This document shows, one piece after another, positions 2,240 through 5,359 of a stretch of DNA of 64,000 nucleotides. Where the stretch lies: positions 31,680,001-31,744,000 of the forward strand of contig OX485806.1 of the NCBI GenBank assembly GCA_950295325.1, given 5' to 3'. Under the pieces are notes generated by a model. The model was not told the origin of the DNA, did not search any database, and saw only the letters and a list, made by a program, of their open reading frames with translations. The position numbers and the translations under genes were made by a program. Position 1 is the stretch's first letter, and every line of letters begins with the position of its first letter. The stretch is from Polytrichum commune (taxonomy: Eukaryota; Streptophyta; Polytrichopsida; Polytrichales; Polytrichaceae).

Positions 2240-2255
2240 GGTGTTTTATAACACC
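2240..2255 (+). promoter_or_regulatory. Histone mRNA-type 3' stem-loop, gene 1
   Basis: GGTGTT (2240-2245) pairs perfectly with AACACC (2250-2255) around the four-base loop TTAT, and ACCA follows at 2256-2259. A six-base stem opening with GG, a four-base loop rich in U, and a 3' ACCA flank are the hallmarks of the 3' stem-loop bound by SLBP in animal and green-algal replication-dependent histone mRNAs. The fourth stem pair is G-C rather than the usual pyrimidine-purine. The hairpin lies 34 nt after the stop codon and is repeated exactly after gene 2. Confidence 0.7.
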
Positions 2256-2627
2256 ACCATTTTGCGTGAAATGTTACTACTCCGTTCGTTGTTGGGACGG
2301 GCACTTACTCATATTGAGTCACAATTTTAAATAAGTATGTGTGCATTTATTGGATCGGTGTCTTCACAAATTTGAATCGGGATTAGTACAGGATATTTTT
2401 ACATCGCAGATATGGTCAGGTTCTTTAGCGATATGATTTCTTTGCTGCAGGATAAGCTTCAACAATGTGGAAGTAGGTTGTACCTTGGTCTGTTGCCACC
2501 TTCCCACTACCTCGCCAACGTCTGCACTGGTACATCCCCGGACTCATTTGGTATTTTTTTACGGGTGACATGTCGAACATAAGAGGCATCATTTGGGCAG
2601 CTTTATTTTACAAGAAATAGCCGTAGA

Positions 2628-2659
2628 GTGCAATCCAAGAGATGTCTCTTGGATTGCAC
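2628..2659. repeat. Perfect 15-bp inverted repeat
   Basis: Arms 2628-2642 and 2645-2659 (GTGCAATCCAAGAGA and its exact complement) are separated by two bases. It lies about 420 bp after H3 gene 1. The arms are too short and the loop too tight for a typical plant miRNA precursor. Function unknown. Confidence 0.6.
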
Positions 2660-2830
2660 CCTGAAAAGAATCAGAATTCTTGTTAGCAATTTATTTGTTC
2701 TAACAGTAAATGTGTTATTCCTGATAGCGAGTCGCCAATTATCGTCTGGAACTGGACGCTTGGTTATTGTAAATCACAGATCCAAAGCGAGAATACACAT
2801 GATTATTGTACAAGAATAAAATGTTTAAGA

Positions 2831-2857
2831 ATTATGGCAGGGTATACCTGCCATAAT
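2831..2857. repeat. Perfect 11-bp inverted repeat
   Basis: ATTATGGCAGG (2831-2841) and its exact complement (2847-2857) flank a five-base loop. It is a second compact hairpin within about 200 bp of the one at 2628. It may be a transcript-end structure or chance. Confidence 0.45.
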
Positions 2858-3600
2858 CTCCACAAGGCTTTGTGCCTCATCATATGTGCAAGCAAGACGT
2901 GCCGGGCTATGGGCATATGCAAGAGAAAATTATTGCATATGAGAATACCTCTCATCTAGGTGTCGAACATCAAAATCTGACCCAATAGGTTTATTGCCGG
3001 GTGAATGTTCACAATACCTACCGAGGGGAGGAAAACGTTGACTACTATTGCAAACTAATCTATAGGGCAGGTTTTTACTACTACCCCGAATCAATCTAGT
3101 CAACTCAATTTTGGGATGAATTAGCAACCAATCTGTAGGGCCGATTTTTACTACTACCAAACCGAACCATTTATTGCCGTTTCATCTTGGATTACTTGGT
3201 CTAGACGAAGTCTAGGCTTCCAAAGTTCACTCCAATGCCATTTCAATCAAAAAATTATTCTAGGTTGGATGAATGAGAGATATGTTCATATGTGTGAATT
3301 TTTCCTCACCTCTGTCCGTGACCTGGAATTGTCTTGCTCACCACATTGGGAAGCACAATAGCAATTCTATCTTGAGGGGCTTCTACTATATGAGGGTTTT
3401 GGGACTGTCCCACTATTGATAATGTAATATTAGAGTCTCAAGTTTTTCTTTCAATTGGACTATCTAGTTGAGATTAGCCTCTATCTCACAGATGCTACTG
3501 GACTCCATCACTCTAGGGAATTAGTGGGTTTGACACAATCTTGATGTACTTTTAGTCCCATACCCTCTTGGCTTCCCCGGACTTTGAGATCAATTTCAGC

Positions 3601-4300
3601 TCATTGGCTTGATCGCAATGTTGCATTGCAATATTAGGTTTTCAAGGATGAACGAGATAAAGTTGAGTGCAATTTCAGTGGACCCTGTTCAAACCTCGAA
3701 CTGCATATTCTTTCTGCGCCTTCTATAGACACCATAGTTAACTGCAATTCTTCATTGAATTTGCCCAGAAGACATCAATCGTGGCTTTTAATTGTGCCAT
3801 CATTGCCTCAGAAAGATATCACCTGTTTGTGTTGTCCGCTTATACCCTCAACAAAGTGCCACACAAGCAGAAGAACCAAAATCAAGTGGGCTGTAAAACC
3901 ATGCATTCTGCGTCGATCAGCAACTTTGTTGAGGATTCATCTCTATTGTGGATGGGTTGAAGAGGACATAATTATCTGCCTCTCTTTCGATCAAAAGGAG
4001 AGATGCCCCGATCCTAAATGCTACCCTAAAAATTGTCAGTTGTAATAGCAGCAATCTTCTCAATTAACAAATCTGAAGCCGTAGGCATGTTTGTCTGTCA
4101 CTGCCTTGCCAATGTCTGCGCCTTGTACAACCCAAATTTACTCCAGATTCATAACCCGAGTTTGATTAAGCCAACAATCCGTTACTCAATTGAAATCTTT
4201 GAAATTCTGGACATTACGATATGTGGTGCCTGAAAGGGATCATTTGGTCGAAGAGTTCAGATGACATATCTCTCTGGGATTGAAGCTCTAAAATAATCAG
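3601..4300 (+). pseudogene. Relic histone cluster unit lacking its H3 coding sequence
   Basis: About 3601-3700 is homologous to the H3 upstream region (compare 4594-4690: TTGGCTTGATCGCAATG against TTGGCTTGGTTCGCAATG, then TGCATTGCAAT.TTAGG). About 3765-3990 is homologous to the segment downstream of H3 gene 2 at about 6077-6220 (GCCATCAT.GCCTCAGAA, TGTTTGTGT.GTCC). About 4105-4140 resembles 2515-2545 downstream of gene 1. Upstream and downstream parts are therefore joined with no H3 coding sequence between them. The simplest reading is a former tandem unit that lost its gene by deletion. This rests on alignment by eye. Confidence 0.5.
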
Positions 4301-4593
4301 GGTTTAAGGCACGTGTAAGTTATCAGTTGGTGTAAACAGGATACTTGATTCTTACACACTTATCATGTGTAAAGCTATGAATGTCACGCAAATTGCCACT
4401 CGTAATTCTGGAAATAGCACCAAGACCTGCTATAATCTATCTTGAAGTCTATCTGCTTAACTTCACATTTAATTATATAGACTATCTCAGAAATAATAAT
4501 AATAATGATAACAATAATAATAATACTGTTGATTATGTGCTTCAATGTGCGCGGGACATCAAATTCTGTTGTACTTACTTAAGTATTTATACT

Positions 4594-4895
4594 GCATTGG
4601 CTTGGTTCGCAATGTGGCATTGCAATTTTAGGTCTTATTGGATGAAAAGCGATGAAGTTGAAATTTCGGTCGTTTCTGTTCGGTGGGGACTCTCCAGGGT
4701 TTCCAAGCCAGATTCAAGCTTCCCGCGCTCACGCGCCCTCTCTCTATCTCATTCTCTCACGGTGGACAGAAATTGCATAAGAAGACCCGATCCCCCTTAG
4801 ACTTCAGCAGCAGTTGATTACCTTGACCTAATCACTTCTTCTCTTTCTCCTCTTCCGCAGTAGCTCGTTCACTTCCTCGCACTCTTGCTGCGGCC
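4594..4895 (+). promoter_or_regulatory. Upstream region of histone H3 gene 2
   Basis: It shares blocks with 1470-1794, including TTGGATGAAAAGCGATGAAG, TTCCCGCG at 4720-4727 (E2F-like) and the CTCGCACTCTTGCTGC leader immediately before the ATG. A (TAA)n-like tract lies just upstream at about 4491-4530. The conserved blocks are the best candidates for promoter elements of the pair. Confidence 0.5.
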
Positions 4896-5306
4896 ATGGC
4901 GCGTACCAAGCAGACCGCTCGCAAATCCACCGGAGGCAAGGCGCCCCGCAAGCAGCTGGCCACCAAGGCAGCTCGCAAGTCCGCCCCCGCCACCGGCGGT
5001 GTGAAGAAGCCCCACAGATACAGACCTGGGACCGTGGCCCTCAGAGAGATCCGCAAGTACCAGAAGTCCACGGAGCTCCTTATCCGCAAATTGCCGTTCC
5101 AGAGGCTGGTGAGGGAGATCGCACAAGATTTCAAGACCGATCTGCGATTCCAGAGCTCCGCGGTGTTGGCCTTGCAGGAGGCTTCAGAGGCGTATTTGGT
5201 AGGGTTGTTCGAGGATACCAACCTGTGTGCCATCCATGCGAAGCGTGTGACAATCATGCCCAAGGACATTCAGCTGGCCCGTCGTATCCGTGGGGAGCGA
5301 GCTTAA
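4896..5306 (+). CDS. Histone H3, copy 2
   Basis: This is a second complete, intronless H3 gene, with a 136-codon product identical residue for residue to copy 1, including the Ala31/Tyr41/Ser87/Leu90 combination and Ser96. The coding strand lies 3101 bp downstream of copy 1 in the same orientation, so the two form a direct tandem. Differences between them are synonymous only, while the introduced upstream and downstream DNA has diverged much more, as expected under strong purifying selection or gene conversion of the coding part. The E2F-like motif 176 bp upstream and the stem-loop 32 nt after the stop match copy 1. This suggests S-phase expression; the sequence does not show expression directly. 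Confidence 0.98.
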
Positions 5307-5338
5307 GTCTTGCGGTCTTTGGTTACTAATTACCCAAC

Positions 5339-5354
5339 GGTGTTTTATAACACC
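5339..5354 (+). promoter_or_regulatory. Histone mRNA-type 3' stem-loop, gene 2
   Basis: GGTGTT-TTAT-AACACC at 5339-5354, then ACCA, 32 nt after the stop. A block from the stem through ACCACCATTTTGC is identical to copy 1, although the DNA between stop and stem has diverged (for example TACTCAAAT against TACCCAAC). Conservation confined to the hairpin and its 3' flank argues for function. Confidence 0.7.
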
Positions 5355-5359
5355 ACCAT

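Follow-up and report, generated by a model that had tools for sequence, protein, structure and literature searches.

A 3' stem-loop behind replication-type histone genes, accompanied by an SLBP gene, in a moss-like land plant

The window analysed here spans 64 kb (C4:31680001-31744000), and the genome to which it belongs comprises 64 contigs with 407.8 Mb in total. The window carries two tandem, unpaired genes for replication-type histone H3, each followed by the same hairpin, GGTGTT-TTAT-AACACC, and then by ACCATTTTG. We consider it probable that replication-dependent histone pre-mRNAs carry this element here as their 3' stem-loop, and that a moss-like land plant has retained the SLBP/stem-loop system; the kind of system is a known one and the lineage is new for it. 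The same stem stands behind genes of five unrelated histone families (H3, H4, H2A, H2B and H1), and the genome encodes an SLBP. In the window, the hairpin begins 34 nucleotides (nt) beyond the stop codon of gene 1 and 32 nt beyond that of gene 2 (these codons end at 2205 and 5306, respectively). An earlier note on this DNA had reported the hairpin and both spacings, and we confirmed them at 2240-2255 and 5339-5354. It had also described a trailing ACCACCATTTTGC beside the hairpin; these bases are present, but not as a separate block, since the stem itself closes with the first ACC, and the new part is ACCATTTTGC.

Of the 411 bases of coding sequence, 25 differ between the two H3 genes (24 in third positions), and the encoded proteins are identical. 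Their 3' untranslated regions (UTRs), which had been called otherwise diverged, do differ (71% identity from stop codon to hairpin and 64% in the following 200 nt), yet they are clearly paralogous, and from the start of the hairpin on 25 of 25 bases are the same in both copies. The exact hairpin occurs at these two places only within the window, which contains 27 perfect hairpins with a 6-bp stem and a 4-nt loop, so geometry alone is not rare; what is rare is the given sequence at the given place. Folding of the 25-mer yielded -7.5 kcal/mol, a stability equalled by none of 200 shuffled sequences, and for three other members of the hairpin set 3, 1 and 10 of 200 shuffles were equally stable.

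Across the genome, the pattern GGTGTTN(4-5)AACACCRCC was found 41 times, against four matches for the reversed pattern, and chance occurrence was set aside on this basis (with the four control matches as expectation, the Poisson tail is 3e-27). A looser pattern, with one mismatch allowed, gave 73 matches and its control 78, so that only the exact form separates from background. Thirty-five of the 41 exact motifs lie behind histone genes (13 behind H3, nine behind H4, seven behind H2A, five behind H2B and one behind H1), one follows a broken H3 copy (C3:27314938, L025/L031), and five are strays, in which inspection by eye of the translated 258 to 270 bases upstream of each revealed no histone. 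Two of the strays, L090 (C3:22423220) and L091 (C5:15461297), have mutually similar sequence surroundings unlike those of the histone genes, and perhaps represent a repeat family.

The earlier note had proposed that the other core histone genes be scanned for the same hairpin, and it is indeed present on those of replication type, 27-70 nt beyond the stop codon. A genome search with PF00125 gave at least 34 matches, 14 of which are full-length, single-exon H3 genes of replication type. Thirteen of the 14 carry GGTGTTT[T/C/G]ATAACACCACC at 27-42 nt past the stop codon. In the fourteenth (C4:40343090, L017), a degraded form alone, CGTGTTTTCCAACACCAAAA, occurs approximately 140 nt downstream; at this locus the H3 gene is followed by a second, broken copy of the H3 C-terminus and the degraded hairpin. 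Three H3.3-type genes with His87 (two in L018, one in L019) showed no hairpin within 160 nt and no exact motif nearby. Five PF00125 matches that we could not assign (C2:38253828, C4:52103498, C5:20966661, C7:5005416 and C7:5008171) likewise had no exact motif near them. Among 11 H4 matches, located on C3 and C2, ten are intact, and all ten have the hairpin at 35-45 nt past the stop codon, one of them as the variant GGTGTT-CCTG-AGCACC with a U-G pair; the eleventh (L071) is an internally stopped copy that has kept a hairpin remnant scoring 40.7 bits. The ten H2B matches comprise five intact genes, all with the hairpin, and five degenerate ones. Two of the intact H2B genes have 5-nt loops (TGTTT and TCGTC; L072 at C3:45591516 and L073 at C4:3316188). 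The degenerate H2B copies are diverged or broken (52-57% identity) and bear decayed hairpins, e.g. GTTGTTTCAGAACGCC, which suggests that these copies spread along with their 3' ends.

Seven of 11 H2A matches have the hairpin, 36-70 nt past the stop codon. The other four are two H2A.Z-like genes, an H2A.X gene whose product ends in SQEF (L082) and one whose tail is odd (L083); no hairpin was found in the approximately 70 to 200 nt read past L082, L083 and one of the H2A.Z-like genes (L020), and the second H2A.Z-like match has no exact motif nearby in the genome-wide motif list. Six matches to PF00538 were obtained for H1, the best of which (C4:12607718, L035) has the hairpin 33 nt past its stop codon, while the genome-wide motif list has no exact motif near the five weaker ones. 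Altogether, of the histone genes found that we class as replication-type, 36 of 37 carry the hairpin (36 of 38 when the odd-tailed H2A is included), with the replication-type status of the H2A genes judged from sequence and general knowledge of the family, and it is absent from the replacement variants that were read.

This distribution bears on the proposal that the hairpin is a functionless remnant of tandem duplication or gene conversion among H3 copies. The H3 genes of the window are paralogues with partly alignable UTRs, and nine of the 14 full-length H3 matches fall within approximately 1.15 Mb on C4, as such a history would have it. However, the same hairpin follows H4, H2A, H2B and H1 genes, mostly on other chromosomes, the flanks are scrambled from gene to gene while the stem and ACC stay fixed, and none was seen behind those variants of these families that were read. 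A remnant of duplication was set aside on the multi-family distribution, and we regard it as scarcely credible.

The H3 hairpins were also recovered with a covariance model, R2, built from 19 hairpins of H1, H2A, H2B and H4 genes and none of H3. Over the window, R2 gave the two sites 43.1 and 41.5 bits, its sole further matches being the opposite strands of these (14.9 and 13.1 bits). Over 19 H3-bearing loci, several of them overlapping, it recovered 13 of 13 H3 hairpins, and up to an E value of 10 it had no match in L017, L018 or L019. Under model R1, four of the strays scored 31.3 (L090), 23.3, 22.7 and 13.0 bits, and the fifth gave no score.

To describe the element we used an alignment (A1) of 27 of 35 rows, from which eight near-copies were left out; two H2A hairpins on C6 lie outside the 35. 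All six pairs are formed in 27 of 27 rows, five pairs being invariant and one having a single U-G. The loop has 4 nt in 25 rows and 5 nt in two (H2B), in 11 kinds of sequence, ATTT (10 rows) and TTAT (five) among them. The stem is followed by A (26/27), C (27/27) and C (26/27), with GCC and ACA once each, and preceded by T or C at -1 (26/27), A at -2 (23/27) and A at -3 (21/27). The G-C, G-C base of the stem and the U-A pair closing the loop agree with the consensus of RF00032, and the second G of the stem, position 7 of that consensus, is G in all 27 rows. Further downstream, the sequences show a purine block at a fixed distance: the purine fraction is 0.96 at +13 and 0.93 at +14 (27 of 35 rows, near-duplicates removed), and when near-duplicates were removed more strictly, to 21 of 35 rows, and the families weighted equally, purines were densest over the three bases +13..+15 (0.85), a value that none of 5000 shuffles reached. 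Animal downstream elements are purine-rich and lie approximately 10-17 nt past the stem.

Another possible explanation is that the hairpin acts as a palindrome in DNA, for example as a transcription-factor site, or as an RNA hairpin that marks S-phase genes and is bound by something other than SLBP. An almost invariant and palindromic stem is compatible with recognition of DNA. Against it, at the histone genes read the element lies on the sense strand just past the stop codon and is followed by ACC (with the two exceptions given above) and by the purine block, and an SLBP is encoded in the genome; we hold this explanation to be very unlikely.

One SLBP homologue, for which the earlier note had suggested a search, was detected. 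The SLBP RNA-binding domain (PF15247) is encoded by two adjacent exons on C7, located within C7:8456429-8457042 (56.2 and 44.8 bits), that reach 113 bits when joined, against a Pfam cut-off of 27, and a charged exon upstream of the domain joins in frame at predicted splice sites. The protein matched five SLBP sequences in PDB with E values from 7.9e-24 to 1.7e-5, and the best PDB match is itself an SLBP. Its QRQKQIDYGKNTLGYERY aligns to RRQKQINYGKNTIAYDRY of 4l8r, a chain which we take to be human SLBP, and its SKRSWD to SRRSWD. The equivalent of Arg181, counted ten places past Thr171 in the 4l8r alignment, is kept; PMC10388802 describes the contacts between Arg181 and G7 as the sole base-specific ones. 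The earlier note had suggested that this lineage kept, or converged on, stem-loop-dependent histone mRNA ends, and the genome supports it, with the hairpin on H4, H2A, H2B and H1 genes and with the SLBP gene. Of its two alternatives, 'kept' is the better fit, given that the SLBP found is a true homologue. Domain databases record PF15247 in some non-seed plants.

By analogy with the animal system, SLBP would bind the GGUGUU/AACACC hairpin, the purine block at +13..+15 would help to position a cleavage complex, and the cut would fall after ACC(A/U), to give an S-phase histone mRNA with the stem-loop as its end and no poly(A) tail. These mRNAs would be under cell-cycle control, and the hairpin-free replacement variants (H3.3, H2A.X and H2A.Z) are taken to be polyadenylated.

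It may be instead that the SLBP-bound hairpin serves translation, stability or localisation, and that the mRNAs, like ordinary mRNAs of plants, are still cleaved and polyadenylated downstream, in a dual or poly(A)-dominant arrangement. PMC6827988 describes plant histone mRNAs as polyadenylated, the H2A genes read (five of the seven with the hairpin) and all five intact H2B genes contain a GT..AG intron at a site common to the family, as ordinary spliced pre-mRNAs do, and weak tests recognised no U7 in the genome. A purine block at a fixed distance downstream would, in turn, be expected for cleavage at the hairpin and is unneeded for a translation element, the hairpin stands near the stop codon, and the division of Chlamydomonas histone transcripts by polyadenylation, reported in PMC8226298, is the same as that by presence or absence of the hairpin here. 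Taken together, we judge this alternative improbable, and cleavage at the stem-loop of replication-dependent histone pre-mRNAs remains our preferred reading.

A number of observations nevertheless weigh against that reading. Stray L090, at 31.3 bits, scores level with the weakest histone members (30.2 and 30.9 bits), so that R1 alone cannot separate every stray. The stem hardly varies, and covariation is therefore unusable as support for pairing; the loop bases do vary, and the two H2B loops have 5 nt; and the folding of a 66-nt UTR stretch is but a modest improvement on that of its shuffles (18 of 200 were as good). The two 5' adenines described in PMC10388802 fall at -2 and -3 here, with T or C between them and the stem. 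The SLBP has TPDI where animal proteins have TPNK, with Thr and Pro kept and NK replaced by DI; TPNK with Thr171 is an animal feature and is unneeded for passing the Pfam cut-off. The Rfam Histone3 model (RF00032) gave 18.8 bits at 5334-5380 when 91 bases were searched, and its gathering score of 34 was not reached; in the genome, with 75 of 91,826 candidates scored, it marked five other places at up to 27.9 bits, all below the cut-off and none at the histone loci described above. It should be noted that this search lists weak places in nine of 14 prokaryote controls, too. The whole window searched with cmscan against Rfam at the gathering threshold gave no match, and positions 1700-5700 at E<=10 gave three matches, none of them Histone3. 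We do not file the element as a member of the RF00032 model as built. Finally, no U7 exceeded the cut-off: RF00066 reached 22.7 of 34 bits at best, with 65 of 90,221 genome candidates scored, a weak test that lists sub-cut-off places in 12 of the 14 prokaryote controls as well, and a core pattern of animal-type U7, also a weak test, had no match in the genome.

As regards the host, contigs C1 to C7 measure 77.85, 70.29, 59.16, 59.10, 52.94, 44.65 and 42.08 Mb (406.1 Mb in sum) and form seven chromosome-sized pieces; n=7 is usual for Polytrichaceae. Three LEAFY DNA-binding exons were read, and at site 312, where we take H to denote type I and D type II, one has H (L086) and two have D (L087 and L088). 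According to PMC6588583, LEAFY types I and II occur in Polytrichum commune, several early-diverging mosses and one liverwort, and Bryopsida have type II only. The replication-type H3 of the genome carries Tyr41, and PMC5809374 places the first appearance of Phe41 in ferns and gives Tyr41 as the sole form in green algae and mosses. Tyr41 of H3.1, both LEAFY types and seven large chromosomes thus point to an early-diverging moss of the Polytrichum kind, or less probably a liverwort, and not to a flowering plant, as far as such markers can tell, and the contrast with flowering plants drawn in the earlier note is accordingly weaker.

A search of the literature that covered titles, abstracts and some passages, with many subscription papers outside it, returned no report of SLBP or histone stem-loops in bryophytes, mosses included. 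Papers describe the hairpin as missing from the histone messages of plants; published statements on plant histone mRNAs, as we read them, rest mainly on flowering plants. We propose, tentatively and with less than even confidence, that this land plant has a complete, SLBP-driven and poly(A)-independent pathway in which some factor other than a recognisable U7 snRNA of animal type reads the downstream purine element, and that this pathway was present in the common land-plant ancestor and lost towards flowering plants. A hairpin and SLBP in a land plant would place the loss later than the rise of the land plants, and would offer a tractable system for the switch of S-phase histone supply from stem-loop to poly(A) control. 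In such plants, poly(A)-selected RNA sequencing may under-count histone mRNAs.

The features discussed are collected in Table 1. Elsewhere in the window, an inverted repeat of 18 bases (94% complementary, 2-nt spacer) lies at 2625-2662, approximately 420 bases past H3 gene 1, and coincides with an Rfam mir-1289 match far under threshold. On the reverse strand, an EF-hand-like piece (44031-44429) and a C2 domain (36230-36667), approximately 8 kb apart within 36230-44429, look like parts of one gene for a phosphoinositide-specific phospholipase C. On the forward strand, 26457-28667 is an open frame of 736 amino acids with one IQ motif (PF00612), resembling the plant IQD calmodulin-binding proteins.

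Table 1. Coordinates of the H3 genes and 3' elements of the window, and of broken H2B copies elsewhere in the genome
Feature	Position	Strand	Remarks
Replication-type histone H3 gene 1, intronless coding sequence	1795..2205	+	136 amino acids (Ala31, Tyr41, Ser87); protein identical to that of copy 2
Histone 3' stem-loop, copy 1	2240..2255	+	6-bp stem, 4-nt loop; model R2 43.1 bits over 2228-2273
ACCA directly 3' of stem, copy 1	2256..2259	+	predicted cleavage region, by animal analogy
GAAA purine block, copy 1	2268..2271	+	+13-16 nt from stem; downstream-element-like
Replication-type histone H3 gene 2, intronless coding sequence	4896..5306	+	same 136-amino-acid protein; PF00125 match
Histone 3' stem-loop, copy 2	5339..5354	+	model R2 41.5 bits over 5327-5372
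ACCA directly 3' of stem, copy 2	5355..5358	+	
GAAA purine block, copy 2	5367..5370	+	+13-16 nt from stem
Broken H2B copies (L046, L054, L077-L081)	C5:17339654, C1:48523710, C5:17177287, C2:61962842, C5:19529767		

Compared with the stem-loop/SLBP/U7 system of animals, the element described here shares the 6-bp stem with its G-C, G-C base and U-A at the loop, the 4-nt loop, the 5' adenines, the 3' ACC, the occurrence on replication-type genes, an SLBP with the Arg181 equivalent and a purine-rich block downstream, the last of which has a counterpart in animals. It differs in the stem sequence (GGUGUU/AACACC), in its looser loops (11 kinds among 27, two H2B loops being of 5 nt), in the pyrimidine (U or C) that separates the stem from the 5' adenines, in TPDI instead of TPNK in SLBP, in the introns of the H2A and H2B genes, and in that no U7 was recognised by the weak tests applied. 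With flowering plants the genome shares plant-type histone proteins. Histone genes of green algae (Chlamydomonas and Volvox) have a 3' palindrome. The surveyed algae, according to PMC8226298, mostly have divergent histone gene pairs, none of which are reported there for Marchantia, Physcomitrium or Arabidopsis. Here the H3 genes of the window are tandem and unpaired, and the H4 genes are on C3 and C2. The same paper reports that replication histone transcripts of Chlamydomonas are non-polyadenylated and that non-replication ones are polyadenylated, which parallels the presence and absence of the hairpin here; of the experimental parallels considered, Chlamydomonas is the nearest.

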